Below, piece by piece: positions 6,692 to 46,760 of a stretch of DNA of 64,000 nt. Source of the stretch: Strix aluco (taxonomy: Eukaryota > Chordata > Aves > Strigiformes > Strigidae); the NCBI RefSeq assembly GCF_031877795.1, contig NC_133935.1, positions 50,057,330 through 50,121,329 on the forward strand, in the 5' to 3' direction. Every line of letters starts with the position of its first letter. Positions within the stretch are counted from its first letter, which is position 1. The position numbers and the translations under genes were made by a program. The notes under the pieces were generated by a model that had not been told where the DNA came from, ran no database searches, and saw only the letters and a list, made by a program, of their open reading frames with translations.

Positions 6692-6733
6692 ATACCTTCC
6701 TAAATTCTTTCAATACCTTCCTAAATTCTTTCA
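6692..6733. repeat. 21-bp perfect tandem duplication
   Basis: The unit ATACCTTCCTAAATTCTTTCA occurs twice head to tail (6692-6712 and 6713-6733) with no mismatch. This looks like a recent slippage or local duplication in non-coding DNA. Confidence 0.95.
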
Positions 6734-15542: not shown

Positions 15543-16085
15543 TGTTATGGTTTAACCCCAGCTGACAATTAAGCACTACACAGCCACTCGCTCACTCTTC
15601 CCCCACTCAGTGGGATGGGGAAGAATTGGGAGAAAAAAAAGGAAAACTCATAGCTTGAGATAAAGGCAGTTTAATATGACAGAAAAGGAAGGGAAAATAA
15701 TAATAACAAGAGAATATACAAAACAAAGGATGCACAATACAATTGGTCACCACCCACTGACTGATGCCCAGCCAGACCCCAAGTCACAGTGCCCTCTGGC
15801 TAACTCTCCCCAGTTTATATACTGAATATGAGGTATGGAATACCCCTTTGGCTCATTTGGGTCAGCTGTCCTTGCTGTGTCCCCTCCCAGCTTCTTGTGC
15901 ACTCCCAGTCTCTGTTGGCAGGACAGTATGAAAAGCTGAAGAGTCCTTGACTTAGTGTAAATGCTGCTTAGCAACAACTAAACCATCAGTGTGTTATCAA
16001 CATTATTCTCATCCTAAATCCAAAACACAGCACCATACCAGCTACTAGGAAGAAAATTAACTTTATTCCAGCTAAAACCAAGACA
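15543..16085 (-). mobile_element. Solo LTR, ERVL-like, minus orientation
   Basis: The element is bounded by TG…CA and by a perfect 5-bp target duplication, CTGTT, at 15,538-15,542 and 16,086-16,090. Read on the minus strand it starts TGTCTTGGTTTTAGCTGG and continues with TTAATTTTCTTCCTAGTAGC, a stretch nearly identical to the start of the plus-strand LTR at 18,573. The two are therefore members of one family in opposite orientations. No gag, pol or env remains. A 5-bp duplication and this LTR type are what I expect from avian ERVL-class elements. Confidence 0.9.
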
Positions 16086-16090
16086 CTGTT

Positions 16091-18567: not shown

Positions 18568-18572
18568 CTACT

Positions 18573-19169
18573 TGTGCTGGTTTTGGATGGGATAGAGTTA
18601 ATTTTCTTCCTAGTAGCTAGTATGGGGCTATGTTTTCAATTTGTGTTGAAAACAGTGTTGGTAATACAGAGATGTTTTTGTTATTGCTGAGCAGTGCTTA
18701 CACAGAGTCAAGGCCTTTTCTGCTTCTCACCCCACCCCACCCCACCAGCGAGCAGGCTGGGGGTGCGCAAGGAGTTGGGAGGGGACACAGCCGGAACAGC
18801 TGACCCCAACTGACCAAAGGGATATCCCAGACCATATGATGTCATGCTCAGCGTATGAAGCTGAGGGAAGACGAAGGAAGTGGGGGACGTTCAGAGTGAT
18901 GGTGTTTGTCTTCCCAAGTAACCGTTAAGCGTGATGGAGCCCTGCTTTCCTGGAGATGGCTGAACACCTGCCTGCCGATGGGAAGTAGTGAATGAATTCC
19001 TTGTTTTTCTTTGCTTGCGTGCGCAGATTTTTCTTTACCTATTAATCTGTCTTTATCTCAACCCACGAGTTTTCTCACTTTTACCCTTCTGATTCTATCC
19101 CCCATCCCATGGAGGGGGAGTGACTGAGTGAGCGGCTGTGTGTGACTTAGTTGGGGTTAAACCACGACA
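18573..19169 (+). mobile_element. Solo LTR, ERVL-like, plus orientation
   Basis: The element starts TGTGCTGGTTTTGGATGGG, ends GGGTTAAACCACGACA, and is flanked by a near-perfect 5-bp target duplication (CTACT at 18,568-18,572; CTAGT at 19,170-19,174). It contains a CCCCA-rich tract near 18,732-18,746 and a purine-rich GGAGGGGGAG block near the 3' end. It shares its 5' region with the minus-strand LTR at 15,543-16,085 and is about 50 bp longer. No internal retroviral sequence remains. Confidence 0.9.
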
Positions 19170-19174
19170 CTAGT

Positions 19175-20899
19175 CCACCCTCTAGTGCTGTACTGAGGCA
19201 TAGTTAAAGTAGCAGCAGGGGGGGTGGGACTGTCCCTTTCTCAGACCTTCAGTCACCTTACACCCATGTGCTTCTCCAAATATCAGCTTCACCTGTGCCT
19301 AAACCAGGCCAAAGTGACAAAAAAAGATCAAAGACACTGGTGTAATCACTATCAAATGTAGACATACCAAAAATACATCAGAGTTCATTAAAACTGAGTA
19401 AATTTACCACTTCCTTAATTTTTTAGTGCCAAAGGAGCTGATGTCATTCGGTGGCTGTTCTTCACTCCTGCAAGACCATGACAATCTTGTTTTAATGCTG
19501 CAGTCAAGTAAAAGAAGGTCACAAGCTCTTGGATGCTCAAGGAAGCATGGTCTTTTCAGAGCTAGGCTGGAGAAATGGCACATTGCCAGTCCCCTTTCAG
19601 TGGCAATTTTTCTGCTGATCCTTAAGCTCTTTTGTTTTTCTGTCCAGTCACAGGAATGTGACTTCAAAACCACTGTGCTCAAGAGGAAGGTTCTTTGCTC
19701 ACTTGTCTGTTTTGGGAGTAGAGAACAGAAAGTTTTCTACAGGTATACTTTAATGGCAGGAGCCTGAAAGAGGAAACAATGTGGAAAACTTGAAAGATCT
19801 TTGATGACTGACAGTGAAACTCAAAGTATAGAGAGAATTTTCTAGTGTCCACTGCCTAAAAAAACAATTAGATGGAGACACAGTCATTGCGAGTGAGAAT
19901 AGCAGGAAATCCCAAAGCTGATCTCCATGATACTGTGTCTTGAAACAGTGCAAGGGAAGTGCAGGTGTTCAAGAGCCACAAAAATGAAGCTGTGAGAAAC
20001 CACTCTTATTCCAACTATGCTCGAGCTCTTCTCTCCCTTGTGCATTCTCCGTCTGATTTCCTACATCTCTCACCATGTTTCCTTTTAACCTTTAGTTGCT
20101 TGTTCTACTCCCAAATTCCTCCCTTCTGTATTCCCTACTGCCCTTTTAGCAATCCTCTGAATACCTTCCTCCTTCCTTTTCAGTCGCATATGGTCACATA
20201 CAAGAAATCAGAAAGTGGATGACTATTTAGCTTGAAGGAGACAGAAAATCTTTCAGAGAGTCTAAGAGGTTTAACTCAGATCAAACACATTATCAATGCA
20301 AAGTAATCCAAATTCCTCTTACATGAATATATAAAAATATGCATCATTTGCATGAATATATATAACATGGATGCAGGACTTTCAAATGAGATCTTCACAT
20401 CACTAAATCAGCCAGGAAAAAAACACTTTCACTCTTTGATACACTGATGATTTGCTAATAATGTTGTTAAGCACAAGGGCCCCTCCTTAACAAGTTTTAA
20501 TGCTGGTGGCACAAAGAATTGCACGAAGACCAGGACCGGTTACAAAAGCTATGATGCTGCTGCCACCTGAGGTTTTTTTCTGGAAATACATCCCTTGTGT
20601 GGAAGGGGTTGCACAAAAATTGGGGTATAGATGGAAAAGGCAATCCGAGGCTCATTAGTGCCAGAAGAGCCTCGCCAATGCAAGAAGAGACTGTCCTCAT
20701 AGGCAGCCTCAAGCTAACACTTTTTCCAACACTGCACAAGAGCTGTATAAGCTGCTCTCAGCACATACTACTGTCAGCAAGGGCAGTTCTGCCCTTCTCA
20801 CTGCCCTCACCAGCCTGGGCCTCCTCCTTGCCTTGTGCTGGCACCAGTGCTTTTGCAACCTCCAGCTGAGACAGATCAGAGAAGTGATCCAACTAAAAT
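19175..20899. other. Intergenic, nothing recognised
   Basis: No exon or named repeat was identified. Opposed open frames at about 19,400-19,770 and 20,500-20,870 overlap on both strands, carry no domain I recognise and look like chance. Confidence 0.45.
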
Positions 20900-21829: not shown

Positions 21830-22100
21830 CTTCTACTGTTGGTATCTGATTTTAGTTGGTAAAGATCATGCTGTCATTTGTGCCCAACTTTTGATCTGGT
21901 TCCTGGCTTTCTCCTACTGCTGTAAAATACCATTTTAATCATAAATCATCTCGTACAAATTTCTCCCACTGTGGACCTCAGCTTTGCACGTGATGTACAC
22001 TGACATATTAGACCAAGCATTTGCAAGCATGAATCAAATTTACTTTTCTCTGTCATGTTCACCATCACATCTTTCTGGCTAGGAAAAGTATAACCCAGTT
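21830..22100 (-). pseudogene. IRAK3: IRAK3 exon 9 and C-terminal remnant
   Basis: The minus strand holds ILFLARKM near 22,070-22,095, comparable to LSFLDKKV, followed in another frame by FDSCLQMLGLICQCTSRAKL and then RSTVGEI. The latter matches the human stretch with CLAGRCAATRAKLRPSMDEVL. A TGA follows where human has Leu, and weak agreement continues to a WEDD motif near 21,845. The intron to exon 8 would be only about 60 bp, so DNA has probably been lost here. The true C-terminus was not found. Confidence 0.8.
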
Positions 22101-22158
22101 ACATTTAAAAATCAGAAAATTAGGAACATAGCATGCCTTTTTGAACTGTGACTCTCAC

Positions 22159-22219
22159 CAACAGAGTGTTTTGGACTCTTTATCTCTGCTTCAAAGCCTG
22201 TCAAAACTTCCATTATATC
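22159..22219 (-). pseudogene. IRAK3: IRAK3 exon 8 remnant
   Basis: A short exon, open on the minus strand: DIMEVLTGFEAEIKSPKHSV against human VIMEVLTGCRVVLDDPKHIQ. The acceptor is TTTTAG before 22,219 and the donor is GTTG|gtgaga after 22,159. It is 61 nt long, close to what the human exon needs. MEVLTG is fully kept, which makes this one of the clearest matches. Confidence 0.92.
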
Positions 22220-22496
22220 CTAAAATAGTATAAAATAAAGTGATGTTATTTTTTGAGATCATAAAATATTAATAAACCATGAATAACCAACTACAGCTAT
22301 TAAATATCTTTTAATAGCTATCTTTTTTTAGCAAATTATTTTATTCTTTATTGCTTAAATTCCTTATAACAGTGAAATCATTGCACAATATTTAACAGTA
22401 AATCAAATAATGCTAAAAGATTAAGATCATTCCCTGTCCCAATCAGATAATTTAGAAAAAAGATTTGCTCATTGGTTTACAGAAGTTGATATTTGC

Positions 22497-22687
22497 TATT
22501 CCATAGCTGTAGACATAATTTTACAGAGAGTTTGCCCCATTTTAATAAATCCTCTGGTATGTATCTCCAGAACTTTCTGGTATCCATACTTTCAGTGCAA
22601 ATTTGAAGTACCACATGGGATCTCAGACATGACACAGCAAAATCTGATCATTTTGGTTGATTATGGTCATCCAAAAGTATGTTTGTA
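22497..22687 (-). pseudogene. IRAK3: IRAK3 exon 7 remnant with TGA and 2-nt deletion
   Basis: This encodes the catalytic-loop and activation-segment region. The minus strand reads TNILLDDHNQPK, stop, SDFAVSCLRSH, then RYIPEDLLKWGKLSVK. These align closely with human ANILLDDQFQPK-L-TDFAMAHFRSH and WYMPEEYIRQGKLSIK. The TGA at 22,648-22,650 sits where Leu precedes the DFG-like triplet. After LSVK the match continues as YVYSYGI in another frame, so 2 nt are missing near 22,520. The exon is about 8 nt shorter than human. The acceptor TTCTAG at 22,689-22,688 is intact; the donor position reads GC instead of GT. Confidence 0.96.
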
Positions 22688-23399
22688 CTAGAATTATATA
22701 TAGATGTATATAGCTTATATAAGAGAACAGGGCAGGGAGAAAGAAGCGAGGGAGGGTGAAAAATCAGTCAAAGCAAATTCAATGCTTACATTTTCCTAAT
22801 GCATCAAGTTCTTCCTGTTTATTATATTAATATTTTATTGTGCATTATAGTTCCAGTTAAGCAATCCCATTTATGTACGTGCTGGAAGAACAAGCTGAAA
22901 GAGTCTATCACTTTCAGTGAGATTCCTTAAAATTTTTCAAGTTGAGCAGATGCTTAAAATAAGCATATGATGGGTCAGTGCCTAACCGCACTGTTCGGTA
23001 TTTATTATTAGTAGTGCATGGCTAATGTAATAGATGCTCCCATTCTAAATTCTCTCTTCAGCTGCGCATAAATTCCAAAACCAAACTCCTTTTTGACCTT
23101 AAATTCCAAATACTTGGTCTTATGCAAAAAGCCAATCTTTATATAATAGTTCCTGTAAAATCCATCCTTCTGAATTCACATTATGTGGAGAAGACAGAAG
23201 TAATTACCATGAAATCTAGCTCAATTTTTTCATTCATATAACTGAGAATAGCCATGAAGTTTCAACCATGGTTGAAATTGCAAAGTTCAGCCTCTTATTT
23301 TACAATGAATCTTCTGCAGATGCACCATGACTCTCACTCACAGGTTCATTGAACTCAACAAAAATTTGAGGAGGATCAAGGTTTCACCTGTATGATATT

Positions 23400-23760
23400 T
23401 AGGGAAGAACTGAGCACCCACAGTCACTGCAAGAGGACAGGAGCCACGTAGACCCCCCACAGGGGATCCCCATGAGGGTGAGCAGTCCAGGGCCCATCCC
23501 ACCAACCCAGCAAGGGAGCAGGGCAAGCTGGGGGGGCGGTCAGAGCCATCCCCCAGCCCAACTACCAGATGTGTTTGTGGTGACACAACAGGTCTGGGAC
23601 CAAGCCGGAAAGTCAGTCTGCAAGTCAGGGTCTGGGTCAACAGGGTTCACAGCCAGGCAGGGCTGGAACAGGGCTGGGGATGGGGTCACCTCCACCATGG
23701 CTAGGGGAGAGACTGACAGCTCCTGGCTGAGCTGAAATGGGATCCCCTGATGCAGCACCA
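23400..23760. other. GC-rich segment in a pseudogene intron
   Basis: This stretch, within the interval between IRAK3 exons 7 and 6, is much more GC-rich than its AT-rich flanks. It has recurring GGGGCTGG, CAGGG and CCCAGC words and overlapping chance open frames on both strands. It resembles interspersed-repeat DNA, but I cannot name a family and found no terminal repeats. Confidence 0.35.
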
Positions 23761-23920
23761 GGTCACTTTAATGCCTTTAATTCTACTAAGAGCTCTTCAC
23801 AAAACTAGGCAACTGGGAAACATTAAATAAATTATTTATTACCCAAAGATTTGAAAACCAAAAAATTTTGACAGAACTAGTAGTTATACTCCATAGAGCA
23901 ATTGCTTTCTAAATATATGT

Positions 23921-24385
23921 CATAGAACCCCAGAATCATAGAATGGTTTGGGTTGGAAGGAACCTTAAAAACCATCTAGTTCCACCCCCCCTGCCACTGG
24001 CAGGGACACCTTCCACTAGATCAGGTTGCTCAAAGCCCCGTCCAATCTGGCCTTGAACACTTCCAGGGAGGGGGCATCCACAGCTTCTCTGGGCAACCTG
24101 CGCCAGTGTCTCACCATCCTCACAGCAAATAATTTCTTCCTTATATCTAATCTAAATCTACCCTCTTTCAGTTTAAAACTGTTACCCCTCATCCTATCAC
24201 TACACTCCCTGATAAAGAGTCCCTCCCCATCTTTCCTGTCGGCCCCCTTTAGGTACTGGAAGGCCACTATAAGGTCTCCCTGGAGCCTTCTCTTCTCCAG
24301 GCTGGACATCCCCAACTCTCTCAGCCTGTCCTCATAAGGGAGGTGCTCCAGCCCCTTGATCATCTTCATGGCCCATGCCATGCGA
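23921..24385 (-). mobile_element. CR1 LINE 3' fragment, relatively fresh, minus strand
   Basis: Read on the minus strand this is the 3' end of a CR1 element. It ends with the typical GGTTTGGGTTGG…ATTCTATGATTCT tail. It keeps an open ORF2 C-terminal frame with GLEHLPYEDRLRELGMSSL, then EKRRLQGDLIVAFQYLKGA, and later HWRRLPREAVDAPSLEVFKA. It is 5'-truncated at about 24,385. The open frame suggests a younger insertion than the CR1 at 20.9 kb. It sits in the intron between IRAK3 exon remnants 6 and 7 in the same orientation as that gene. Confidence 0.93.
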
Positions 24386-24453
24386 GTTCCTACTGATCTG
24401 TCTGTGTATGCATACTACACAGCATGTATGAAAATGTAATTTCTATGACACAC

Positions 24454-24582
24454 CTTGCTATTCTGACACATAAAACAGGGCAGGGCTGGATAGTATGCAA
24501 ATACTGAAAACCTTCAGCTATTCCTATTAATATATTTAATTTGCCAGGATAGTGAGAGAATGTCATGATAAAAACCAAGGCA
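24454..24582 (-). pseudogene. IRAK3: IRAK3 exon 6 remnant with 5-nt deletion
   Basis: This exon carries the hinge and helix-E region of the kinase-like domain. The minus strand reads CLG…LSLSWQI in one frame, then ILIGIAEGFQYLHTIQPC and PVLC in another. Human has CVG, LPWHI, ILIGISKAIHYLHNVQPC and SVIC in a single frame. Counting bases between WQI and ILIG shows 5 nt missing near 24,531-24,541. The splice sites look usable: TTACAG acceptor at 24,584-24,583 and GCAAG|gtgtgt donor. The phase joins correctly to exon 7. A CR1 insertion lies only about 70 bp further along. Confidence 0.93.
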
Positions 24583-26680
24583 CTGTAACTAAATACGTGC
24601 TCTGTGTAATACAAAAATTCTACTTCAAAAAGCACAACAGTAAATGCAAAACTTAAAAAACTCCACCATACAATAATTGATACCCTTCTGCTTTTGAATA
24701 TAGACTGGATATTCACTGAAGGGCTTTGATATAGAGTTTCCCATATATTCCCTCCATCTGAATGGTCTGATTTGTTTTTCTTCATTAAATGCCACACAGC
24801 TGAGTTTTGTCATCAAAATTAAGAAATAACCTTGCAACATTTTCAGAGGGGCTGAAGTTCACATTGCTCTTTTTCAGTAAAAATTATGACAATACCGCTG
24901 AAGAGGTACAAATTGTATTTGCAATACCAAGACTTTCAACACCTTCTTTTTCTTACCTTTACAAAAAAGAAATACTTAAAACAGCCATTGAAGAGATTGG
25001 GCTAGTACAAACACTAGCAGTAATGGAGTGTTTTACACTGAGTTGTACTGGAGGCTTTCAAAGCCCATTTAATCTTAGGAAAAATCTATTGCTATTGCTG
25101 GTTTCAATTATTGGCAACAAGAGTTTCTCAACTAATGTTAACAGGATAAATCCATTTTCAGTGCAGTTATAAAAGGATTGACAGAGACATGGGAGATTAT
25201 GCACCATCACACATCTTGAAAGGGTGCTGAAAATGCTTTTGTTCTGTATATGGCAGGATTAGAGAATTTTTTGCCTCTCCACCCCCTGCTGCTCCTCTTA
25301 CATCACAGTAATTAGGATAAATGATCTGTTCGGCCCTCTTCAATGCCTGTGGTGCCTAAACCCAGTGTATAAGATAACACAGGTGCTATGCTTAATCTCC
25401 AGTTCAGCAAAGCACTTAATGTATATTTTGAGACCAGACTTAAAGGTACGTTTAAAAAGAGTTCTTAATGGCACTGGTGAATTGGGGCCTTAACACATAT
25501 TCATGGTCATTGCTCAAGAAAACCATGAGTTAATGTAAATCTGTGGAGAGCAGCACTTCCTCCACGCTGCATGCTAGTAACACAGCTGTACTGCCCAGCA
25601 CAGTCTGCCCCTGGACTCCATACACCCAGGTGTTGCTCCATGGAGGGCTCTGCTCAATCGCACGTGAGTGTTCCTCCCTTCTTCACGTTCCAGGTTTCTT
25701 CAGGAGCATCATTTGATGATATCTATCAAGAACCAGCTTACACGGATATTGTCCAGCGTGGAAGTAATGCAACAGCCCTGGTGCCCCACGGTGTGGCAAG
25801 ATGTACAGAGCACTGTGTAGTCACACACTGAAGCACAAAATCCCAAACACAAATCTAGATCAAATTCTCAAATCAAAAGTACTCTCCAGTAAACATTTTT
25901 TCTTTGGGAATATATTTTAATGTAGTCATCAACAGGATACCTTGTATAGTATAAGCAAATATTTTTATAAAGTCTGACACAAAATGGAATTGCCAGTATT
26001 TATTTGTAAATTAAGATTTCCACAGTATTTTTTCTTAATAGAAAGCATTACAGCCCATTATCTGGGAAATATCCATCTAGTTCAAGTAAGTTTAGATGAA
26101 GAAACCTAGGTATAATGTAGCTTTTGAATCCTTGATTGCTCAGTAGAAAGAAAAGGACCAGTATTTTATATATGCTGGTGTGGTCCCAGGAAAATCACTT
26201 TCACAGATGATAGTTATCAGCACAGAAAGATATTAAATGAAGTAAAGAGTCATCTTAGGTAAATGTGTTATGAATTTGAATGTAACATTGGCTGATGACA
26301 ATATAGAAAAAAATAAGACTATAAATGAAAGCTTAACTTTAAATGTAATGGCTCTGAACTTTTTCTATAGTGTTCCAAGTGCAAATTGTTTTTTTACCAT
26401 AAATAAATATTGGTGGATAAAGCCTGTAAGATTTGCTGGCAAAGATGCACAGCCACAGCTATAAATATGTGGGAAAATCTAATAGTTCAGATTTACTCCA
26501 AAGGTCATCTGGAGTATAAATGTATTCTCAGAAAAATTATGCAGAAATTTTATCATTCTCTTCTTCACATGGGCTGAGATTGCAGGAAATAAGTAAGTCC
26601 TCACAAACTATAATGACAGGAAGAGAAAAATGCCTGTGCTGTGACTGAATCCAGTTTCTTCTAACACATTATTATGTGTT

Positions 26681-26845
26681 CTGTGACATAAATTCCAACC
26701 ATTAACCACTTCCATAGGCATGAAGCCAGAAGAACAGCACTGTTAAGACCGGTTTCAGCTAACCCCTGGAATATTTTACTTTTGAAAAGGTTGCATTTTC
26801 TAGACAAAGGAGGTTTACATGCAGTTTGGCAAGAAGTTAATGTGA
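26681..26845 (-). pseudogene. IRAK3: IRAK3 exon 5 remnant, tentative
   Basis: Minus-strand pieces resemble the N-lobe segment between the ATP-site lysine and the hinge. One frame gives ACKPPLSRKCNLFKSKIFQGLAE in scattered agreement with QCKKHW, LSELEVLLLF and NILELAA. Another frame gives LFFWLHAYGSG, stop, WLEF, against FCLIYPYMRNG and TLFD. Several small gaps, a stop and no clear GT donor indicate heavy decay. It lies where exon 5 should be. The boundaries are approximate. Confidence 0.45.
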
Positions 26846-28690
26846 AAAGGAAAAGCTAAAACATAAAATCAGCTCACAACTGCAAAGCTTAAATTTCTGA
26901 ATGAAAAAGTTTCCACTGTTTCTTCGTATGTTTTGCCTATATATTAGCCAGGAAACATATATAATCAGCATGTGAGTTACAGTGCACAGATGTTCTTAAG
27001 ACTTGTTAATGTGGGATGCAACTCCTCTATCATAAAGGGAAAATGCAAAGTCATTTACCTTGCTTACATCCAATACTCGAGCCACAAGGGAACATGCAAG
27101 AAGTGGTGTGTTTGCCAGAACAAAAGGTAAGAATAAACATATGCCAGGGAAGATACCGAAGACTTTTCCTTTTCCTTTGCTTGCAGACAGGCACAAGGTC
27201 CCAGGAGCACTCTTGCATTGGGAGCATTTCCAGGACGGCTGTAAGAGATCCAGTTTTGTCCATAATGAATGAGAATAAGCTACACTTCATGGGAGCACAT
27301 ATATGCTAATTAGTACAATTTGTTCTGCAATTATATTTTAATTGAACAATCATTAACAGAAATCAGACTGATAGCAAGTCCCCCCAAAAACAAGCATGCA
27401 AAAAGCCTGTGCCTCTTCAGCTTCAATGGCAGTGAGCTTGGATTCTCAGCCACTGCTGTAAAATTGCAAGACAACACCACATAACAAAACCCAAGAAAAT
27501 TATTATGGTATTTCTATATGTACATCAATTAAATAAAACCATGTGCAGATACTGTCTGTCACCTCGGATGTTTCAATATCACTAGACAATGGGTTATCTG
27601 TAACATTCTTGACAGCAAAAGGCAAGTTAATTTCCCCTCTTCTTTTGTTCTATTCAAAATATTTATCCTGGGGAGTGGAATTTCAAATCATTTCGTTAAA
27701 ATTTTCCTCCTATTAAAACCACTCAGCAGCCTCAAAAAACCCCAACAAAATCAATATAGATCAAATAAACACTTATAAAAGATTCAGATTACATGCAGCA
27801 CCACCTGCCCAGCCTCATAGCTCAAACGGTTGGCTGCTGCCCTCACCCAAAGACTGCACGTACGTGCACTGGAATATGAGGGCACATCTCTACTGATTCC
27901 CGCTTAGTCTTCTCAGTCCCCATCAGTACAGAGTAGGTTCAAAGTCCCCTTACTGATTTGTATTGATCACTACTCACCCCAAATTTCAGAAAAACTGTAT
28001 TATTTAATGCTGTACTGCTCATGACATTTCTCGTCAGCCAGACCTGCAGGAAAACAATTATTATTTAAAGCACACTGAAATCAAACATCAACATGACCAG
28101 GAAGTTTGAAACACTAGAGCTGAAACATGCACTGTTTCCAAGATGTTCAAGCTGTTCCTGAACATACTTTGAATTATAAGAAAGGTCAGTCTCTGGGCTT
28201 CTGTACTCTTAAGAACTGGCAAATAAAGAAAACTAGAAAAAATATACAATTCCTGAATGAAATTGTGCAAAAAGTGAATCAAGAAGGAGTACACATTATT
28301 AAGACATGCGACTGTCAATATTAAACAAAAATTCAGCCTTATTTTAAAGTAATTTCTGTTGTTTATATTTGTATTTTCTCATACACTTTGGACTACTTTG
28401 CCATAATGCGCTGTTAGATCCAGTCCAACATTTCCATGTGAAACCTTTAAAATTGCACAGGTAATAGTCTTAAAGCTAGTGTAGATCAAAACCATTGCCA
28501 GAAATTATAGAATATCTCACCAATATCTTCAGCACCAATCCATTCTTTGGAAGCCCTCGCTTATCCATGCGCAACATACATTGCCTAAGAAAGTTAAGCC
28601 TGTTTCAGCTAAGATAAGGAAATACTGGGCAAGATCTTAGTAAGGGCAGCAATCTTGTTTTCACACATCAACATTATTTCTACCCTACAC

Positions 28691-28839
28691 CTGCTTCAAA
28701 AAATTAATAGCATATTTTTGATTCTGAGTATCTGCTTTGTGGATTTCGGAAAACTTTTCCGCTCCAACCAGCAAGTTTTCACTGAAGTTTTCTGTTGTAT
28801 CTCTGATGGTTTTAAGTTGATATGGAGGTGCAAGGCTTT
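28691..28839 (-). pseudogene. IRAK3: IRAK3 exon 4 remnant (kinase N-lobe)
   Basis: This exon encodes the start of the kinase-like domain. The minus-strand frame is open and contains LKTIRDTTENFSENLLVG, then EKFSEIHKADTQNQKYAINF, then LKQ. It matches human NIIEGTRNFHKDFLIG, the glycine-loop region and TYAVKLFKQ. The splice sites are intact: CTACAG acceptor before 28,839 and CAG|gtgtag donor after 28,691. The VAIK-type lysine is Asn here (YAIN). The exon on its own shows no stop or shift, so the call of pseudogene rests on its neighbours. Confidence 0.9.
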
Positions 28840-30384
28840 CTGTAGAAAACTGAGCGTTATTTATCAACCATTTATAGAATTACAACAGCTTCATGGTTCT
28901 TTTCCCCTTTTTGTCACCACTATTACACTCTTTTCACTGCTGTGTCCACAGAATTAAAACTGATAATTGAAAAGAGCATGGTACAAGGACACTGAAGCTG
29001 GTCTCTGGGATTGTAAGGCAGAAAAAAAAGTGAGACTCTCTTGTGGGGGATTTTCCTTCTCTCCAGATACTGCAGTTCAGAGCAGTGATGCCGTGACCAA
29101 GAACCTGCACTGCTGGCAGACACTGGGGGCTCACCACCTACACCTGTGCTGAAGGCAGGAACACAGCTGGAGACATATGGGAAACTTTAAGCCCCTTTTG
29201 TATTCTTTGCATTTTGGAGCTGTTCGATCTCTCCACTTCTTCAATCTCTCCAAAGACCAAAACAAGGTTCACAACAAAACTAAAGAATAATAATGAAGTG
29301 GTAATGCATTTTTAGAAAGAACCAAATGCTAAGTAATAAAGCAATATAAACAAAATAGCATTATTGCTGTTCATTTTTTTATGTTGCCAGAGATACAGCG
29401 GATGATTTTCTGTCCCTTGGGTGTGGGTCCATGATACTTCACAAAGACTTATACTAACCTACTTTTTCATCTGTGTCACAAAAGTGATGTTGCTGAGTTG
29501 GTAATGGACTTATCATGAAAATAAAATGTTTTCTTTTTTGTTATTTGAAATTACATTTTACATTTGAAAACAATACATATTTTGATACATAAACCCACTT
29601 TGTCTATTGTCAGAAACCTGATTGGGGTTTTGTTAATGAAGAGCTTTTCACATAAAAGACACTTCTGTCACAGAAAAACACAATCCCATTGTTATTTTTA
29701 CTAATTAAAGTAAAAGCTTTATCCTTTGTTACTTCAAGATAGTGGTATCAGTGGGATGAGACAGTGGTATACATCTAGTGCTTAGGCTGATGTAACCTAA
29801 GAGATGAAGCTGTACTTTCACAGCCAAAATAAAACTGTGCTAAAGTTAGTCTGTATTTAGAAATACCACCAATGATACCATAAATGGTATCTACATATTG
29901 CTAAATTGTTGATGAATTAAAACATCTACAGAATTACAAAAATGCAGCAGTTTTATATTTGCTTTCTATTCTGTGTAGAAGTAACAAACTTCACAGATGC
30001 AGAATGACAGTAAGCCTCTGAAGGAAAAATCTACATTTGTATTCTGAGAACTCGAAGGCACTTAACATGAGTTTTGTTATTTATTGTCATCATGGGAAGC
30101 ATAAATTTCAGGAAAGCATGTGAGCTTCTCAAACTATATTCCCAGCATCAACCTATTTACAGAAAGAATTTCAGCAAGAAATACAATTATATGTGGGGCT
30201 GATGAAAAACATCTTTTCCCACATCGGTGCTGCTAGAAACTGCCAATCAAAGCACATTTAAGTATTTTCTACCTTAATTATGAGATTCAGGGATGCATGC
30301 TACTCTAATTGTTTCCTAAAAGAGAAAGAAAACACTGAGTTCTATATATTTTTATCAGTGCATCATTAGAATTTCATAGCTTAC

Positions 30385-30519
30385 CTTAGTGTATTAATTT
30401 CTCTACAAAATTCAGCACAGCACAGCCAATTAAAAACAAGAGTTTAAAAAAATGTGTATGTTGCAAATTGACCTCTGGAAAGCTCTTGTCTACAAGCAGC
30501 CAGATCATCATAAGCACTG
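30385..30519 (-). pseudogene. IRAK3: IRAK3 exon 3 remnant with terminal stop
   Basis: This is the linker between the death domain and the kinase-like domain. On the minus strand the frame reads AVL, then DKSFPEVN, then FFK, then AVLNFVEKLIH, followed by TAA. These align with AVL, EKSYQEGG, LFK, NVLI and EKGIL of human IRAK3. The donor is a good AAG|gtaagc at 30,384-30,383. The exon ends on one base, and exon 4 begins on two, exactly as required. The TAA at 30,386-30,388 replaces a conserved Leu just before the exon junction. The acceptor is probably TTGTAG|CAGTG. Confidence 0.75.
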
Positions 30520-31101
30520 CTACAACTGGTCCCCCAAACAGAACACAAACGTGCCCAGAGCTCTGCTTCTACACATTTCTCTGAAAAAAGCTACAGAATA
30601 TTTGGGGTGGTTTATGCAGGTACTGTATTTCTAGAGTGCCTAGTAGACACAACAATGTTCCCTACTATTGCCCTAAAATGCCATTAACACAAACTTAAAT
30701 TAGACGAATGATGCCCTCTGCTTCCTGGAATATAGGATACAAAGAATGTTTAGGTAGCATTTTCCAGCACTGCAAAATTTAGTCCATTTTTCGTATTAGA
30801 AAGACAAAAATGTCACGAGGTCAGAAACTTTTGTTCTTAGCTCTTCAACAACATCATATACATGTGAAAATGTTCCAGATGTGCATTTTAGATGGAGGAG
30901 GAGCTTTGCTTGGGACTTTTTCCCCCAAAATAATATCTGACAGGACTGACAGCCTCCAAAGTTCTTCCCGTGTGTAACCACAGCACTGCAACCTCTCAGC
31001 GATGTGAAAATTTCATAGGATCATGAGGAGAAAAGCAACACAATTTTGGAGAAAGTTTAAGGGAGAAATCACTGTCCAGATAATGCCTAAATTCTGTCAT
31101 G

Positions 31102-31177
31102 CACTCCACACAGGACATATATGTGGGCATGGCAATTTTCACTCCACACAGGACATATGTGTGGGCATGGCAATTTT
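31102..31177. repeat. 38-bp tandem duplication
   Basis: Two 38-bp units, 31,102-31,139 and 31,140-31,177, run head to tail and differ at one base (CATATATGTG versus CATATGTGTG). The unit begins CACTCCACACAGG and ends GGCAATTTT. It lies in the presumed intron between IRAK3 exon remnants 2 and 3. Confidence 0.95.
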
Positions 31178-32659
31178 CAAAGTATTTTGAGATTGTCTGT
31201 GCATTTTCATCTCTGGGCAAAAATCATAAGAAGTCCAACATGAAATATCAGCCACAACATGTATTTCTGAGACTGGCAAAGAAATATTCAAACTGCTGGG
31301 ACCACAAGCATGACTGGGAACCAGCTGGTTTTGCCATGTACCTTGAGCCACACACTTTTACACTGGTACTTGGCATGCACCAGAACTCCAACCTGCTGCG
31401 CAGGAAAAGTTATTTTATCTGATGCTGTCCCAAGCCTAAACACTACTGAAAGACTAATTTTTGCTCCAAACATTTGAATGTGATATCCACAAAGGAAATA
31501 GTTGGGCCAAATGTTAACTAAAACTGTGACTTCATAATTAGTTTAAGCTGCTAGAATGCAGGCCGCCACCCAAAAAGGCAACACCCTCTCCCTGCCATCA
31601 ACTCTGTGTGCCCATCACCTTCTGCTGTGAGCACCTACAGCAGCCCCCATGCAGATCAGCTCATACTGATTATGATCTAACATTAAGTTAGATCACTTCT
31701 GCTTCAGATGTCAGATCACTCTCTCCTTGTTAGAGTTATTCTTGAAAAAGGAGAAATGAATGTTTGAATATAAAAGGCTAGGTTCCCCAAAACTTAAGGT
31801 AATGGGAAGACTCATAAATAACTACAGTTATGTTAATACTTTCACTGCCACACCTGTCTTTCCCTTCAGAGGCCCTACAGAGATGACTAAGCAGAATCCT
31901 GCCCCAGCTGTGATTTTCAGTTAAAGTGGTAGCACCTAAAACACGGCAGTTAACTTCAGACATAGTGCTTTAAAGGAACTGCACAACGGTTGTGAACAAT
32001 TATGTATTTTGGCCAGGAATCATGAAAGCACTATTAAAAGGGTTCACTTGCAATTACACTTATTTTGTTAGCAGGTATTAATGAATGTGGTTAATATTTT
32101 AGCAGAGATATTAGATTAGATGTCTAACACCAAGTATTAGATTTAATGAATCAATCACTTTAATGGCTGATTCATTAAGGTATAGAGACAGCTATCTTCT
32201 AAAATAATTTTAAAATCTATATTTCTCAGGCAAGGATCTCATAAGAACCAAAAGCAGTATTGCAGTATTGGATAATTGGATTAGGATGTAATACAATGCA
32301 GATGTGCTTCAAATGATGCATGCTTACAGAGTGGTCAGTAAAATCTCACACAGATGACAGACAGTAGGCCAAGTTTAGGGATTTACAGTAGAAATTTACC
32401 TGGATCACTCAAATTCTTAGCGTAACTACCACTACTGCATAATTCTGGCTGATTTGTGCATGCTCAGTATCAACCATTTCTGAAACAGGCTTAAAATCAA
32501 GCACTGCTGTAAAAAATATCTTCCCTTAAATGAGTGTACTTGGATTTATCAATTTGATATGGTTGTGCTTTCCTGAACAGCAAAAGACATATAGTGTATG
32601 TCTCAACATGGACTTTCCCCTTCTCCTTGTTTACATAACTCAGATGCCTCGCTTTTAGG

Positions 32660-32812
32660 AGGAAGAAGGTCAAGCACAGCTGGTATCTTAGCAGAGGACC
32701 TTTCTGCAAGACCAAGACAGGACCTACATGCTACAGCCCACTCAACCAGCACATACCCTAGTTGGCTGCTATTAACCACAGAGTGGATATTTTGATCCCA
32801 AGAGGTAGCAGG
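32660..32812 (-). pseudogene. IRAK3: IRAK3 exon 2 remnant (death domain), tentative
   Basis: Minus-strand reading gives PATSWDQNIHSVV and VLVEWA in one frame, which I align with the SW-D-H-V and LLWSWA positions of the human death domain. After an apparent deletion of about 8 nt near 32,725-32,735 the match continues in another frame as VGPVLVLQKG, against IGDLLQVLQEMG. A plausible AG acceptor sits at 32,814-32,813. The 3' splice boundary is not clear. Order and strand fit, but similarity is modest. Confidence 0.45.
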
Positions 32813-34699
32813 CTGACAGCCATGACAGAGATTACAGATCTGTGGAGTGTAAATCCACTCTCTAGCTTGCTCACCTCTTAGTAGAGACATCCTTCTGGAG
32901 AAAGCAGCACCATGGATTTTTTACTGAACTGGACAACACATGCTTTGTAGAGGTAATGCCACTAATAGCAGTCCTTGTAGGCAAAACGTGCAGAGTTGGA
33001 CATGGAGTGAAATACATAATTCATTTTTTTTTAACTGAACAGGGGCTGCTGAGCTGCTTTGTTGCTGCAGAAGAGATGCTTCTGCTTTTTAAGTCACAGC
33101 ATTAACACTTGTCATTAATACATCTCAATCCTAAAACCACTGGAAAAATCTCACCCTTCCACTTCCAAAAAAACCTGAGCAGTTTTTCACAGGAGGCAGG
33201 GTTTGTCCAAACAACATCTTCAACAGGACAAATAGGGATGGTGCAGACAAGAGTGCTGAGATAATGCTGGCTTCAACAAAGATGACTGTCCAGCCCATAA
33301 TCTCTACAAAGGTACCACACGCAATGAATAGTATTTCTCAGGCACATCATTCAAAAGCAAGTTTTAAAAGGAATATCTAGCTAAAAATTCAATAGTGATT
33401 GTCCAAACCTCTGGCTGACTAATAAACCACTGTTCTTCCTGCTAGTATCCGAGAACGTCAAGATTACACAACTAATCTTCTTAAAAATGGTATTTAAACA
33501 TTAATTAACACTAGGAAACACTCAGGTGAGAGACCTGTCTACAACTCTTTACTCCTTTGCTGGACCAAGTGTGGTATTTAGCAATGTGTACTACTCTTTT
33601 CTGACTGCTGTTCCAGAAAGGTGACTTGAATCGACGTGGAAGTACTTTGCTATGTCTGGAGCCACAAGCTCTGTTTCTGCCTCATGCAAAATGAGCAGTA
33701 ACTATATATCTGGCACATGTATCCTGAGACTTAATGCTGGTCTGCTTCACACAACTAAATAATTAACCTTGTGAATAAGCAAAGGATTTGCCAGTGACCC
33801 ACTTCCTGAAGAGTCTGCATGAGGCTGCCAACAGTCTTGTTCCATCAGCACCAGAACAAACTTCTCACACCACTTTTATCTTTCCCTCTGTATTTTTCAA
33901 TGCTGTGAAGCTCCAGCAAGTGTCTTGAAAGGCACTCAGCTGTGGAAAAAAGGGTGGAAAAACTAAGGGCTGCTCAATGGGTAACAGCACTTCACAGCCC
34001 AAAGCCCCCTTGTGCCCTTTGCATTCTTGCCTGAAGATGCATTGCAGGAGCTGCAAGTAGCCTCTGCACATCAGGGTCAACCTGCGTATGATGGCAGAGT
34101 GAGGAGACAAGGTAACTCCAAGGATGCCTTGTGCCTAATGCAGCCACTCCAGACAAACTCATGGTGCAGGCAATGCTCGAGGGTGAGCTGTGCCCTTCCC
34201 TCCTCCCGGCTCTCCTAGCACCAATACGCAGCCAGAATAGCGGGGGCCGTACTCTGTGTGGGTACTTCTGCACTGATAAAGCTGTCCTAGCAGAGAAGGG
34301 ACTGCATCTCCATCAAAGGAGGTTTGCTGACTTGGTTTTATGGGTGCACCTACAGCAACAGGCCCGCTCTTTCACAGAAATAACCATCCCCGTCATGTTT
34401 TTTGCCATCTCCTCCTTCTCCTTTTCTGCCCTTGCCATGTCACTATCCCAGCCGTGATACTCCCACTCCAACCATATGTGGAAGATGGCACAGTGAGCTG
34501 AAGCAGACTTCCATAGGCCAGACTGACTCACGATCCTCTTCTGTTCCCAGACAACACTATCCATCCAGTGCACCCCAACTGTGGCAAGGGCTGACTGCTG
34601 GATGGCAGTCAACATTAGTAATTAACAGTAGTTCTTTTTTGTTATTTGTATCTAGAGTCAGTCTCTTCCAAGCTCGTTTTCCAAGCAGTGTTTAACTAT

Positions 34700-39580: not shown

Positions 39581-40130
39581 CTTCCCTCGCAAGGTCACTT
39601 CCCGCTCAGGCACACCGCGTCGAGTCGCCACCCCCGGTACCCGTCAGGCCGCAGCCGTTGGCACCGCCACCCGCGGCGGCCGCCACCGCTCTCCTCAGCC
39701 CTGCCTCGCTCCCGCTGCGGCCTCTGCCCGCCCTGCAGGGACAGCGAGGGGGGAGGACAGCGCGGCGGGGCCGGCGGGCCCGGCAGCGCACGGCACGGCC
39801 TGTTCCAGCCCGGTGCTCCTGAGAGCCCCCGCCGCCCACCGCAGCACCCCGGGAAGGCGGGCAGCTGCGATCGACGAGCTCGGCCGCTCGACAGAGGGCC
39901 CTGCTCGGCGGTGCGGAGTGCGACTGTCTCTCCCGGAAGCGGGGCCGTTGTCGCCGTTGCTGGGGGGGGGGGGAGGAGGCGGAGGCGGCGATGGCGGCGG
40001 CGGAGCAGCTCTACCCGCGGAGCTCCATCGAAGATGACTTCAACTATGGCAGCAACGTGGCCTCGGCCAGCGTCCACATCCGCATGGGTAGGGACTGGGG
40101 ATGAGTAAAACTGCCACACACACCCCTTCC
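39580..40130 (+). promoter_or_regulatory. TMBIM4: CpG-island promoter and 5' UTR of TMBIM4
   Basis: The DNA changes abruptly from AT-rich to very GC-rich with dense CpG (for example CCGCGGCGGCC near 39,670 and CGGCGGGGCC near 39,760), and reverts soon after the first coding exon. There is no TATA box. A GGAAGCGGGG block and a 12-G run (39,962-39,973) directly precede the start codon. Long open frames on both strands here are a by-product of high GC. The exact transcription start cannot be read. Confidence 0.85.
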
Positions 40131-43100
40131 CCCGAGTCCTCCTCCACCTCAGGCCCCCCCAGCCCTTGCGGAGAGGCCCCAGCTGCCTCCCCTTGCTGAA
40201 CGGTCAAAAGGGGTGTCGTACCCCACTGCTCCCAACAAGCTCCTCTCTGTTAACTCCAGCGACTGGGGCGTTTAGCTGAATTCAGCTTCTGCGCAATATT
40301 TCAACCTTCTGGGTAAAGTGGGGAGCCAGGGCATTATTTAGTCCAGGTTAAGCATCAAGGGTAAGGGAAAGATCAGTGGCTGGCAAAAGATTTTAGTGTA
40401 TAGTGGTAGGTCTTTTTATCAGAGGGATGAAACCCATATAGATTCAGACTTGATTTTCCCTGGAGTGATGCATTTTGGAGCCCAAACATGATACGTGAGA
40501 TGCATAAATGCTGTAATTGGTGCCCATAATTATGGTAGTTTAACCAGGAGACAGAGGTTTGTATTTCTTCTGTGAGGTGCTAAAATGTTTTCTCTCCCAC
40601 TGAAGCGTTTGTGTGCTATAAGGTCGTATTAGCGGCCATGAAATAGTGCTTTGCTGTTAATATGCAGGTCTCAAATGCGTTGAATACTCTTGTAGAAGGT
40701 GTCTCATCAGTAATCCTTGCTGAAATAGTGTTATTGGATTCATCTTGGAATAAAAACAGCTGTGTGCTATGCATTTTTTATTAGATATTTCTGATAAGCA
40801 GGAGATCTCTTCCCATCAAAATACAGTTTTATCTTGTTTGGAAAATAAAGGATGCCATAGGAAATATGAGAGAGGTATTCCATTAGCAAGATTGCTGATG
40901 CATTTAATAATGTGGGGAGAAGGCTGTGCTAGCTAGCAGACTACTTCTAGGTTTGTTAAGTTTATGACAACAAAGTAGGCCTCAGTCCCTCATGGTTTAC
41001 AAGTATATTTAACTTCACCTGCTGCAAGCAGGTGGTTCAGCTTCTCGTAGTATGTGCTCTTAAACTTGTTTAGGCTGTGCTATTAAAGATTGAATTGATT
41101 CTTCCTGTAAGCTTATTCTTCCTTTCAGAGCATTTTGCTTAATGGACTTGGTCTCTTTCCACTAAGAACAGAGAATATCTGTATGATATATCTGTATGTC
41201 TTGAACCACTCTCCACTCTTTGTAATTCTAGACTTATGAAGCCTGTTAGCTTAATTCTGGAATTTTTTTTCATAGCAGTCTGTAGATACCCATTCAGTAC
41301 AATGCAAGTTACAAATGATGATAAACAATATTTAACATGACAGAAGGTCAATCAAATAAGTGTTACTGTAAAAGTTTTTCCTTTTTAAGCTTTTGTAGCT
41401 GTTTGTCTTCCACAGAACTTCCAAGTTAATCTTTCTTCATTTAGGTCCATTAGATATCAGTAACATGATGGAGAAGGTATACTGTTTGTAATTTCTTGGT
41501 GAGATTAGGTGTATGTTGTTTTTAAAATAGTCTAAAATAAACTAATTACAAATGTTTTTTTGTATTTCTTTTGTCATTGTTGTTGTTTAAATAATGAAGT
41601 CCAGGAATAAATATAATTTTGCTGAAATACTGTTTCAATTTCTTAAGGAAAAATGGCTTCTTACCACTTTGCTGTGTGCTTTTTCACTGAATAGCTTCTA
41701 ATGGTCCTTATCAAATAGAAAACTTGTATCTGATTTACTGTTGAACAGTATAACTCAAAAGTGATTTCATTTTTATTTTCCTTATTCTAGCTTTTCTACG
41801 GAAAGTCTACAGCATTCTTTCCATTCAAGTTCTTTTGACCACAGTCACGTCTGCAATTTTTCTGTACTCTAGTGGAGTGCAGGCATTTGTTCATGAAAGG
41901 TAAATAGTAAAATGAAATTGAGCTGTTTATTGTATGTTAAGTATAGTTTATGTAGTTTGCTGCTCTGGAACACTTCAGTATTCCTAATCATTTTTATACC
42001 CTGTGTTTTGATTCTGTAATTCTGTAAGAAATCTTGTAACCTGATTAGGAAATAACTTCTCTGACATTTTTCTCCTTGGTTTGTTATTAAAATTTGTTTT
42101 TTACTATTATCATTAGAGTTTATCTTAATCAATACTTTATTAATAGTGCTTGTTTTAATATTTATGCTATGAAAAGCTATACAATAGCTGCAGAACATCT
42201 CAATTATTGATGTTTCTTGTTTTGGTCAAGTATCTACTTTTAAAATCTATTTGAAATGCTGTTGTTTATAGGTACCAGTTCCAAAAAGCTGAATCATTTG
42301 GTGCAGTTAGTGCCTGTGTTTGTTGCATTCAGGTGCTTATAAAAAACGGGTCCCTGAACATGGAGTTCTTAATAGGCAAAATATTACATGTACTTTAATA
42401 CTGTGAGTTTAGTACAGATGGATTTTCCTCTTCATACGGGTTCATCTCCAGGTGATGGATTCCTGGGCAATCTTTAGCTTCAGTATGAAAAAATCATCTT
42501 TACTTGTGACTGTGCTATTTTTAACTGATTATCTGTGGTGGTATTGTTTAGACCAGTTTTATTGTAAAACTTGCCTAACATTTACTTGGATATACAGAGC
42601 AGTATCTTTATTTAGGTGATCACTTAAAAAGTTGGTTTTATATAAACTGATTTTTAGTCTTCCAGATATTTTCATTTTGATGACATTTTTGTATGGAACT
42701 TTACAGGCCTGCCTTGCTTTTGATATCTGGGTTTGTATCTTTGGCTATAATTGTGGCACTGACCCTCTACAGACACCAGCATCCTGTTAATTTATACCTG
42801 CTTTTTGGATTTGTAAGTATTTATATAAAAATTCAATTTTAATAGTCCCTAGAATATCTTTCATTGTGATGAACTCCTTGAAGCAAACTAGTGGTGGTAA
42901 TTTGTTTTTCTTGTATTCTTTGAAGGATACCTTATATGTTTATGAAGGCCTGAGTTATCTTTTGGAGATTCTGTCTGCAGGTTGTTCCTAGATAGCCTCT
43001 ATGTCAGGCTTCTTCCAGCATCTTTTTAGGAAGAGTGTTAGAACTTGGAATCAGATTGAGCAAACTTTTTTTTTCCTGTGTATGTATATAAATGTATCTG

Positions 43101-46100
43101 TTTGCTCTCATTGTTGATGTCAGTGATTTTGCTATGAAACTGCTCAGTAGGAAAGGAGGAGGCATGTTTAATGGATGACCTCCAGAAGACATCCGAAAGC
43201 AACAAGCCATATGTGTTTATTTCTTTAATTGTGGTCTTTTTGATGCTAAATTCTGAGCATGTTTCAAGCACTGGCAGGTCAATTAGAGCTGTCCTCAAAT
43301 TTCAGTTTCCTGCCTGTTGCTGCAAATTTGTAGATATGGGCTAACTGTTACTCTTAGATATTTTGGATTATGTAGCAAATCAGTATTCTGGAAAGAAGTC
43401 ACAGTAGCACAATTAGAATTTGATGCTTTACGAGTTGCCTAAATTGTATTTGTGATACAACAGGAAGACAGCTTTGCTGTGTAAGTAAATAGACTTTTTA
43501 AATGGTAACACAGTTATGTGCTTCCTGACTTCTGAAGTCTTGCAGGAGAGTAAAATGTTTAAAAACTTTCAACAAGTGCAGCTGTAACAAGGAGTGATGT
43601 AATAGTTTGGCTAAATGCGGTGTGGGAGTTTGTGGTATGACAGTTTATTACATTGTGTAGGAATAGAAGGATTCAATCTGTGTGTGATAAATTGATTTAA
43701 ACAGAGTCTGGGTTAAATGTTTTGTATTTCTGACCTCTTGGTTCGTGACATAGAGACTTTTCTCATATTTTGTTGTAATGAAACTTAATTTGAAATTATC
43801 TTTTGGAAAAACTCAGAGCCCATACTAGCCTTCAGCCCAGACATTAATAAAATGTTTGATTTTAAGTTAGCTGTTTTAAAACAAGGACAAGTGGGAAAAG
43901 GAAGTTGATGCAGACACTTAGCTGTCTAACAAGGTATTAAGAGTGTATTAATTTTATAGTCTTTGTTTGTAAAGAAGTGTGATAAGAATGCTGTGTGCTT
44001 TGAGTAGAAAACCTAAATGGCATTTTTCTATAGCGGCTGTGTCTCATTAATTTTCAGTTTATATTGTATTCTTTTTATGTAACACGACAACTTCCAGCAC
44101 AGTAAAACAGTATGATTGCTATTTTCTTGTTGAAAACTAAACATGTTTCCATATACAAAGATTTAACAAGAGAGCTAATGTAACGCATGCTGGGATTACG
44201 TAGCAGAATGGGACTCATTGCATGTGAAGTCTCCGTGTACACGTTTTGTGGGTGGTTTTTTTATCTTTATAATTTTTTCTTTTTACTTTTTGTAGACCTT
44301 ACTGGAAGCACTGACAGTTGCTATTACAGGTAAATGGTAACCATCCTATTGTCTGATTCTATAAAGAAACTGGAAAAGGAATCTAATATGTTGTATTAAT
44401 TGCCGTCTTAGATTCCTAGATGTGACTAAAATGATAGTAAATCCTGTTTGAAAATTTTAATGACAGTGGTAGGAGTTTAGCAAAACACAGGGAATCAAGG
44501 GAGAAAAATGGATTCTGATTCAAACTGCAACTGTACAAACCAGAAGTGAGTTGTGCCATCTGTTCTTTCGGTGCAGCTAGCAATGTTCGTTCCTATAAGG
44601 TAGCTCTCAGCAGAGCTGATCTGCAAGTGAAATATCCTTATCTTCCCCCTCAGTTTCCTCCAAGAGAATTTGAGTTTGGAGAGTTCTGTACTTCGTTGTC
44701 AGTGTTGAGATGGGGCGGTGTGCGGACAAGTCATGGCATCACCTCACACTATAGCTTCCAGTATAAGATGAAACCTCTTCATTGTGGCTTATGATCTGCA
44801 AAAAAAACCCACCCTTGTTTGGGGAAAGGAAAGATTAAGGAGGAAGGAGGGAAGAAAAAGGTTCCACTTATTTCTCTTATCTTTCCCCTCCTATCCCCTA
44901 ATCAGAACTTTATGAGGCTTTACAGAGGACTGACTGTTTTTTCCCTTGTTTCAGTATCATGAAAAATTCAGGTAGCTTTTTCCTTAAGATCTCACGTATC
45001 TGTGCTTGAAATACTTCTTATTTTCTTCCTTTTATTTTGTTTGTTATTGTGAGTAGGGAAGATCTGTTATTTCCATTTAAGAAGCTACAGCTATAAGATA
45101 ACTGTCAAACTTAGCTAGTGCAAGGGTCAGTAAGTCCTGTGATCATGATTTTGAAGTACAAAGACAAGTTCAGACATAATTTACTTTTTTTGTTCAGAGT
45201 TAAGATTTTTTTTTTTTTCCCGTCTGTGAAATTTTAAACTTCTGCTTCCTCAAAAGAAAACTTAGCAAATACATAGTGTAGTGTACTTTAAAATGACAGT
45301 TCACTTTTTCTGTTTACAGTGACTTTGTATGATGTGTGCATCGTCTTGCAAGCCTTTATTCTTACTAGTGCTGTATTTCTTGGACTGACTGCATATACCT
45401 TGCAGTCAAAGAGAGACTTCAGCAAATTTGGAGCAGGGTATGTTGTTATATTATTGATGATTTTTTTTAATAAATTTTTTTTTGTTAAGATATTTTTTCT
45501 TCTTTTGAAGCAAACTTTGCAGATATAATAAAGAATGCAGGTCAATAGAACCTGCTTCAAGGGAATGGTGAGGCTGTTATTTCTCTTAAATTATTTATGC
45601 AGTTCTACTTTCTTGGTAAGAAGTTCTTTTCTGTGATTCTTATGATTCTTAAAACCATAGTATTACACTAGAAAACTAGTTTACCTGGATTTTTCACTGA
45701 GACAGAAAGCAGCTGCTTCAAATATGTCATAACTTTACCATTTAAAAAATAACTTTTGACAGCTTTATAAAACCGAGTTTTACTGCTGATGAATGAACAG
45801 TTGGCATATAAGAATTATGGATGTTTACTTACTGAATATATTGTGAAGAGGTTTCATGAGAAGGGAAGAGATTTTAAGTAAAATTTAAAAGAAAATACAT
45901 TGTTGCTCACAGTTTAATTTTATTTTTTTCAGCCTCTTTGCTTGTTTGTGGATTTTAATCTTCTCAGGTTTCTTGAGGGTAAGATACCTTGTGTTCAAGG
46001 TTAAAAATTATTCTTTAACATAAATCTTTTACTAACTTCTAGTATAACAAAGTGGTTTTGCACTGTCCAATATAGCTTAATGAAAGAAAATTCGAACCAG

Positions 46101-46760
46101 ATGTTGTAGATCATGCTGGTGATCTTTTAACCTTTCATTTCCATTTCAGATTTTTGTTGGATACTGTTCTTGCTAATGTAAAAGTGGTATTTGTATTGAT
46201 TGACAAAATTTGTCAGTCAAGATCCACTACTTCACTGAGAGAATGGGAGGGAGATTTGGATTTTATTTGTATTTTGGTTTTCTAATTTTTCTGCTCTTGT
46301 TAATATACTGGAGACCAGGGCTTGCTCCCTCTTAAGTTGAGGCAGTTTTACTCAGTTAAAGAGATTGTGTGACTGGGGACTATATGAAATAAGAACATTG
46401 GAGATGTCATCGTAATACTGTATTTATGTGTATATAATAGTAAAAAGACAGTGTGTATCCTTGTTTTAACTGTGGCATATCATTATACAGGAATTTTAAT
46501 ATTAAAAAGAAAATTAAATTTACCATTTTTTTTTATGTTTCATTTGCCTCCAGCTGTTTTTCTACAATGAGACAATAGAGTTGGTGTTTGCTGCTGCAGG
46601 AGCTCTTCTGTTCTGTGGATTTATTATTTATGACACTCATTTGCTGATGCACAAATTATCCCCTGAAGAGTACATACTGGCTGCAATCAATCTCTACTTG
46701 GACATCATCAATCTGTTCTTACACCTGCTGCGTTTACTGGAGGCATTTAATAAAAAATAG
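39991..46760 (+). CDS. TMBIM4: TMBIM4, Golgi/ER BAX-inhibitor-motif protein, 7 exons
   Basis: TMBIM4 (GAAP, Lifeguard 4) is a multi-pass membrane protein of the BAX-inhibitor-1 family; it sits in Golgi and ER, lowers stored calcium and protects from apoptosis. Coding exons are 39991-40087, 41791-41899, 42707-42812, 44296-44329, 45320-45437, 45933-45978 and 46554-46760, all bounded by AG and GT. They sum to 717 nt, giving 238 residues, the human length. The protein starts [20 protein letters not shown]. About seven hydrophobic segments follow from residue 36, including [20 protein letters not shown] and [16 protein letters not shown]. The family's conserved aspartates are Asp197 ([11 protein letters not shown]) and Asp220 (LYLDII). 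The C-terminus is FNKK. Start chosen by CpG island, ACC-free but GC-rich context and family N-terminus. LLPH follows in the same direction about 1.5 kb downstream. Introns hold nothing I recognise. The gene looks intact. Confidence 0.98.

Follow-up and report, generated by a model that had tools for sequence, protein, structure and literature searches.

A decayed IRAK3 (IRAK-M) gene beside TMBIM4 in Strix aluco, a putative unitary pseudogene

A stretch of 64,000 nucleotides of the Strix aluco genome (hereafter the window) very probably contains the IRAK3 (IRAK-M) orthologue at its original locus, where it is dead and in decay. On the minus strand, from ~33.94 to 19.6 kb, nine remnants of IRAK3 exons form a single colinear chain in a profile alignment that is aware of frameshifts and introns. 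A dead IRAK3 with introns, next to TMBIM4, has the look of a unitary pseudogene, and it is treated here as a putative one. The absence of IRAK-M from birds is already published; the relic, its lesions and a rough date of the loss are new, as far as could be searched.

Exon remnants and their lesions

The chain was built by a script fitting an IRAK3 profile to DNA while allowing frameshifts, stops and introns. The profile comprises 13 proteins: human, five other placentals, five marsupials, platypus and coelacanth. The chain scores 310.7, compared with 33.1 for the plus strand, 39.6 for the reversed strand and 38.8 and 35.7 for the minus strands of the flanks. The remnants are, in protein order:

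33768..33939, minus strand: death-domain exon, human residues ~45-103; 34.4 bits
28691..28839, minus strand: first pseudokinase exon, residues ~150-196; open; 28.0 bits
26878..26936, minus strand: residues 197-218; TAA at 26891; weak alone, 4.7 bits
26021..26105, minus strand: residues 219-249; TAA at 26050; weak alone, -0.5 bits
24454..24588, minus strand: residues ~250-294; 5-nt deletion at 24543; 23.8 bits
22497..22687, minus strand: residues 295-362; TGA at 22650, 2-nt deletion at 22515; 41.6 bits
22159..22219, minus strand: residues 363-383, with IMEVLTG; weak alone, 3.7 bits
21957..22078, minus strand: residues 384-440; weak alone, 4.8 bits
about 19594..19855, minus strand: C-terminal exon, residues ~441-540; 15.9 bits

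In a six-frame search with the same profile, the top 11 matches all fall on the minus strand between 33943 and 19594 and follow the protein order; two of these matches overlap stronger ones, and the rest mark nine distinct places. The strongest five (41.6, 34.4, 28.0, 23.8 and 15.9 bits) stand against control maxima of 0.3 for the reversed window and 3.4, 5.5 and 1.4 for three Markov windows. The four weak remnants (4.8, 4.7, 3.7 and -0.5 bits) are singly none above the best control and count through their order only. With human IRAK3 as query, tblastn gave 17 matches in the window at E<=10, nine of them colinear on the minus strand (33940-19612); the seven best all lie within the chain, and the other eight are scattered, with E>=0.47. 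The relic is identical to human IRAK3 at 170 of 389 aligned codons.

No convincing remnant of residues 1-44 (exon 1) was found by local tblastn with human, tenrec, marsupial and coelacanth pieces, nor of residues ~104-150 (exons 3-4) with human, mouse, marsupial, platypus and coelacanth pieces; the best E value of these searches, for a short basic stretch, was only 0.046. A segment that the aligner set on residues 104-152 (33768-33715 and 28852-28823), including a TAA at 33765, is spurious or unsupported and was excluded from the counts. The aligner's fourth frameshift step (33769) was taken as splice phase and is likewise uncounted.

Seven in-frame stops interrupt the relic (TGA 33847, TAA 26891, TAA 26050, TGA 22650, TAA 19752, TGA 19701 and TGA 19650; the last three in the C-terminal remnant), six within the 389 aligned codons and one a TGA that the aligner set as an extra codon. 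There are three frameshifts: 5 nt lost at 24543, 2 nt lost at 22515, and a third, near 22165 or where that exon adjoins the following one, the form of which depends on the splice position. In addition, 48 nt are missing between 22012 and 22011, corresponding to residues 405-420, which are present in human and coelacanth, and one or two splice donors are damaged (GCAAAT in place of GT after 22497; no clear donor after 26021, in a remnant where three codons are also gone). The death-domain remnant has lost two to three codons beside its TGA (33847-33845) and retains an acceptor (..CCACAG) and a donor (GTTAAT). If the weak remnants at 26.9 and 26.1 kb are set aside, the count is still five stops and three frameshifts.

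By eye, AG is present at all nine acceptors and a clear GT at five of eight donors, with two more possible and one GC; the chain aligner set three of eight acceptors off AG. The homologous frame continues when the remnants 26878..26936 and 26021..26105 are joined at GT/AG signals, as it does when 24454..24588 is spliced onto 22497..22687. The exon-intron structure is thus retained, with nine remnants and their splice signals across ~14 kb; hence, the relic is not a retrocopy. Among the codons invariant in all 13 IRAK3 proteins, 88 of 142 are kept and 54 lost. The corresponding leave-one-out counts are 142/151 for platypus, 142/147 for mouse, 760/815 for the five marsupials together and 142/186 for coelacanth.

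An earlier note on this DNA had described ordered minus-strand IRAK3 exon remnants beside TMBIM4, broken by at least four separate lesions, and had read them as a unitary pseudogene. That reading, as a putative one, is supported by the ancestral place next to TMBIM4, the kept introns and the lesions, and both the remains (nine remnants; 310.7 against 33-40) and the damage (seven stops, three frameshifts and the 48-nt deletion) exceed what was noted. The frameshift-aware alignment it suggested, run with the IRAK3 profile, yielded the nine colinear remnants. Its three peptides lie at 24533-24495, 22686-22666 (TNILLDD) and 22216-22196 (IMEVLTG); the 5-nt deletion is present at 24543, and the TGA and 2-nt deletion assigned to exon 7 at 22650 and 22515. 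Of the shifts attributed to exon 9, one frameshift is confirmed, near 22165. No position could be assigned to the exon 3 TAA, as the intron 28860-33765 nowhere rises above noise; TAA codons are present in the remnants at 26891 and 26050. The proposed span, 21830-32812, is too short at both ends, missing the death-domain exon (33768-33939) and the C-terminal exon (about 19594-19855).

Identity and gene neighbourhood

Judged by sequence similarity, the relic belongs with IRAK3 and not with IRAK1 or IRAK4. The best PDB match of the joined read-through is IRAK3 (152.9 bits), compared with 63.9 bits for IRAK1 and 22.9 for the best IRAK4, with some plant receptor kinases (~42 bits) ranking between these two; IRAK2 is absent from the best 60 of 99 PDB sequences, and the paralogue comparison covers IRAK1 and IRAK4. 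In the PDB, the reading frame 24390-24797 by itself also matches IRAK3 best. At E<=0.1, Pfam recognised no Death domain in the read-through; its kinase matches were borderline (28.1 bits with a cut-off of 31.7, and 23.8 with a cut-off of 23.1). The second death-domain exon, the sole one recovered, matches the IRAK3 death domain 5uke at 32.4 bits. A missing Pfam Death domain is expected for a decayed half-domain; hence, the orthology stands.

The IRAK3 pseudokinase signature is given, in a passage of PMC7955167, as Phe177 in the G-loop, CGS and DFA. The relic retains DFA, with CVR for CGS and Ser for Phe177, which may be what a decayed copy shows. Intact mammalian and coelacanth IRAK3 have the same exon order, and their death-domain, pseudokinase and C-terminal segments align with the relic; unlike them, the relic has stops, frameshifts and missing exons.

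The relic is at the ancestral position, with TMBIM4 and LLPH, both on the plus strand, next to it in the human gene order. The other features of the window are:

39991..46757, plus strand: TMBIM4; tblastn exon matches in order, Pfam Bax1-I
48257..48439, plus strand: first coding exon of LLPH; Pfam LLPH, 79 bits
23945..24385, minus strand: 3' end of a presumably CR1-like retroposon, in one of the introns of the relic

TMBIM4, searched by tblastn with a human protein sequence, doubles as a control of assembly quality. Its exons are open but for a weak match at 44263-44325 (E 0.45), which contains a stop taken to be intronic. Bax1-I is matched by the last exon at 70 bits and by the preceding one at 33.7, just below the cut-off of 34.1. 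At 6.8 kb, the gene is compact here; human TMBIM4 is several times longer. This compactness and the CR1-like element both accord with a bird source. A GC-rich island (39500-40110, 70% G+C vs. 40% for the window) lies over its first exon. Between this island and 33945, no convincing first exon of IRAK3 was found. On the other side of the relic, HELB would be expected from the human order; a simple motif pattern scan of the minus-strand frames from 1 to 20 kb returned two chance-like three-letter matches, recognising neither HELB nor any other gene on the minus strand of positions 1-19500. Rfam gave 0 matches in the window.

Reported absence in birds and time since the loss

IRAK-M has been reported absent from birds, reptiles and amphibians in a passage of Gosu et al. 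2012 (PMC3498205), and the loss in sauropsids and amphibians is repeated in part of a 2019 trout paper (PMC6763605). Gosu et al. deal with the same gene and likewise conclude that birds are without IRAK-M; in the passages concerned, this is an absence from collected sequences, and one of them has IRAKM originating early in the mammalian lineage. In contrast, a physical relic at the mammalian position indicates that the gene was once present in this lineage and then lost. The vertebrate-wide presence of IRAK3 (134 orthologues) stated in a section of a 2021 structure paper (PMC7955167) does not sit easily with the reported sauropsid and amphibian absence. The word 'IRAK' does not occur in the main text of Lovell et al. 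2014 (PMC4290089); a passage of PMC3253384, citing Cormican et al. 2009, names TRAM, TRAF, TRIF and IRF3 as missing in chicken, and no IRAK; and the passages on IRAK in PMC3543326 are silent about bird IRAK3. No description of a bird IRAK3 relic was found among the listed titles and abstracts of the mainly open-access literature.

A bird-like IRAK3 query against a protein database gave 162 matches at E<=0.001 among 1759 candidates. Among the 120 of these 162 that were listed, there is no named bird, reptile or amphibian protein: the named ones are mammalian, except for two coelacanth entries, and of five nameless ones, two look mammalian and three share 75-83% identity with human. With such a query, IRAK3 from a turtle, crocodile or lizard would be expected to rank above coelacanth, and the reported reptile absence is consistent with this result, within the word filter and the 120 of 162 matches. 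In the first bird-like search, none of 1391 candidates scored at E<=10. This query scores up to ~200 bits against mammalian IRAK3, and in simulated word sampling of 120 mammalian proteins, 87 share one word with it, 28 two, three three and two none; with word sharing so sparse, the negative is a weak one.

If decay was neutral, the invariant codons, calibrated on platypus, give ~0.20 substitutions/site (bootstrap 0.14-0.30, three transition rates), an estimate biased low by counting alignable exons alone. Over nine settings, the point estimates are 0.15-0.25 (bootstrap 0.09-0.33); the coelacanth calibration, the harshest, gives 0.10, and the stop count (seven vs. 389 codons) fits 0.19-0.23. 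The avian neutral rate is near 2e-9 per site per year, at which 0.2 substitutions/site would correspond, very roughly and with wide error, to 100 million years; at slow crocodilian or turtle rates, the same value would mean a far older loss. The loss of IRAK3 would thus fall on the branch leading to birds, at an age of very roughly 100 million years.

Early archosaur substitution rates were probably slow, which favours another reading, a single death before the reptile lineages split, with the relic just fading slowly. This is also in line with reptiles being reported without IRAK-M (in a passage of PMC3498205) and with no reptile being named among the listed 120 of 162 database matches. We consider it unlikely: 0.15-0.25 substitutions/site (bootstrap 0.09-0.33; 0.10 at the harshest) is low for ~280 million years, and 0.35 would leave 37-49% of the invariant codons, compared with the 62% observed, although the low bias of an estimate from alignable exons weakens this argument. 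A value of ~0.2 is easier to reconcile with a bird-lineage loss than with a single old loss for all reptiles. Moderate decay, together with the reptile absence in the database, favours more than one IRAK3 loss among reptiles and does not prove it. Tentatively, the loss of IRAK3 in birds may have been independent of its loss in other reptile lines; birds, reportedly also without IRAK1, might then carry Toll/IL-1 receptor signals through IRAK4 and IRAK2 alone, the brake having been lost along with one of the kinases it restrained.

Other readings and consequences for Toll signalling

A dead duplicate copy, with an intact IRAK3 elsewhere in the genome, is improbable, as the relic occupies the ancestral place beside TMBIM4 and LLPH, birds are reported without IRAK-M (again in part of PMC3498205), and the bird-like query gave mammals and coelacanth, with no named bird, reptile or amphibian among the listed 120 of 162 matches. 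Several surviving splice signals would suit continued transcription of the remnant, to yield a short decoy protein or RNA regulator, a role made very improbable by the TGA in the death-domain exon and by the preceding exon not being found. Assembly or sequencing errors in a living gene are hardly conceivable: the stops, frameshifts, 48-nt deletion, missing exons and 54 of 142 lost invariant codons are too numerous and too diverse for that, and the adjoining TMBIM4 reads open.

If IRAK3 was lost on the branch leading to birds, Toll/IL-1 receptor signalling in this lineage would since have run without the IRAK-M pseudokinase. Because IRAK3 damps this pathway in mammals, a brake on Toll/IL-1 receptor signalling may have been lost and perhaps replaced. 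Trout Irak3, according to part of PMC6763605, does not directly interfere with TLR-mediated inflammation; hence, the role of IRAK3 outside mammals is itself uncertain. Other innate immune genes have been lost in birds, as reported in passages on TLR8, a pseudogene (PMC3848724), MDA5, lost repeatedly (PMC8619217), and RIPK3, lost in chicken (PMC9573974). IRAK3 differs from these in being reported, in mammals, as an inhibitor of the pathway and not a sensor.

With the relic, a reported absence becomes a loss that is demonstrated and roughly dated, and, for the Strix aluco lineage, the objection that the gene merely hides from the assembly at its own locus is answered. Birds would be a natural setting in which to ask how Toll signalling is restrained without IRAK-M. 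The retroposon inside the dead gene could act as a shared-insertion marker across species.
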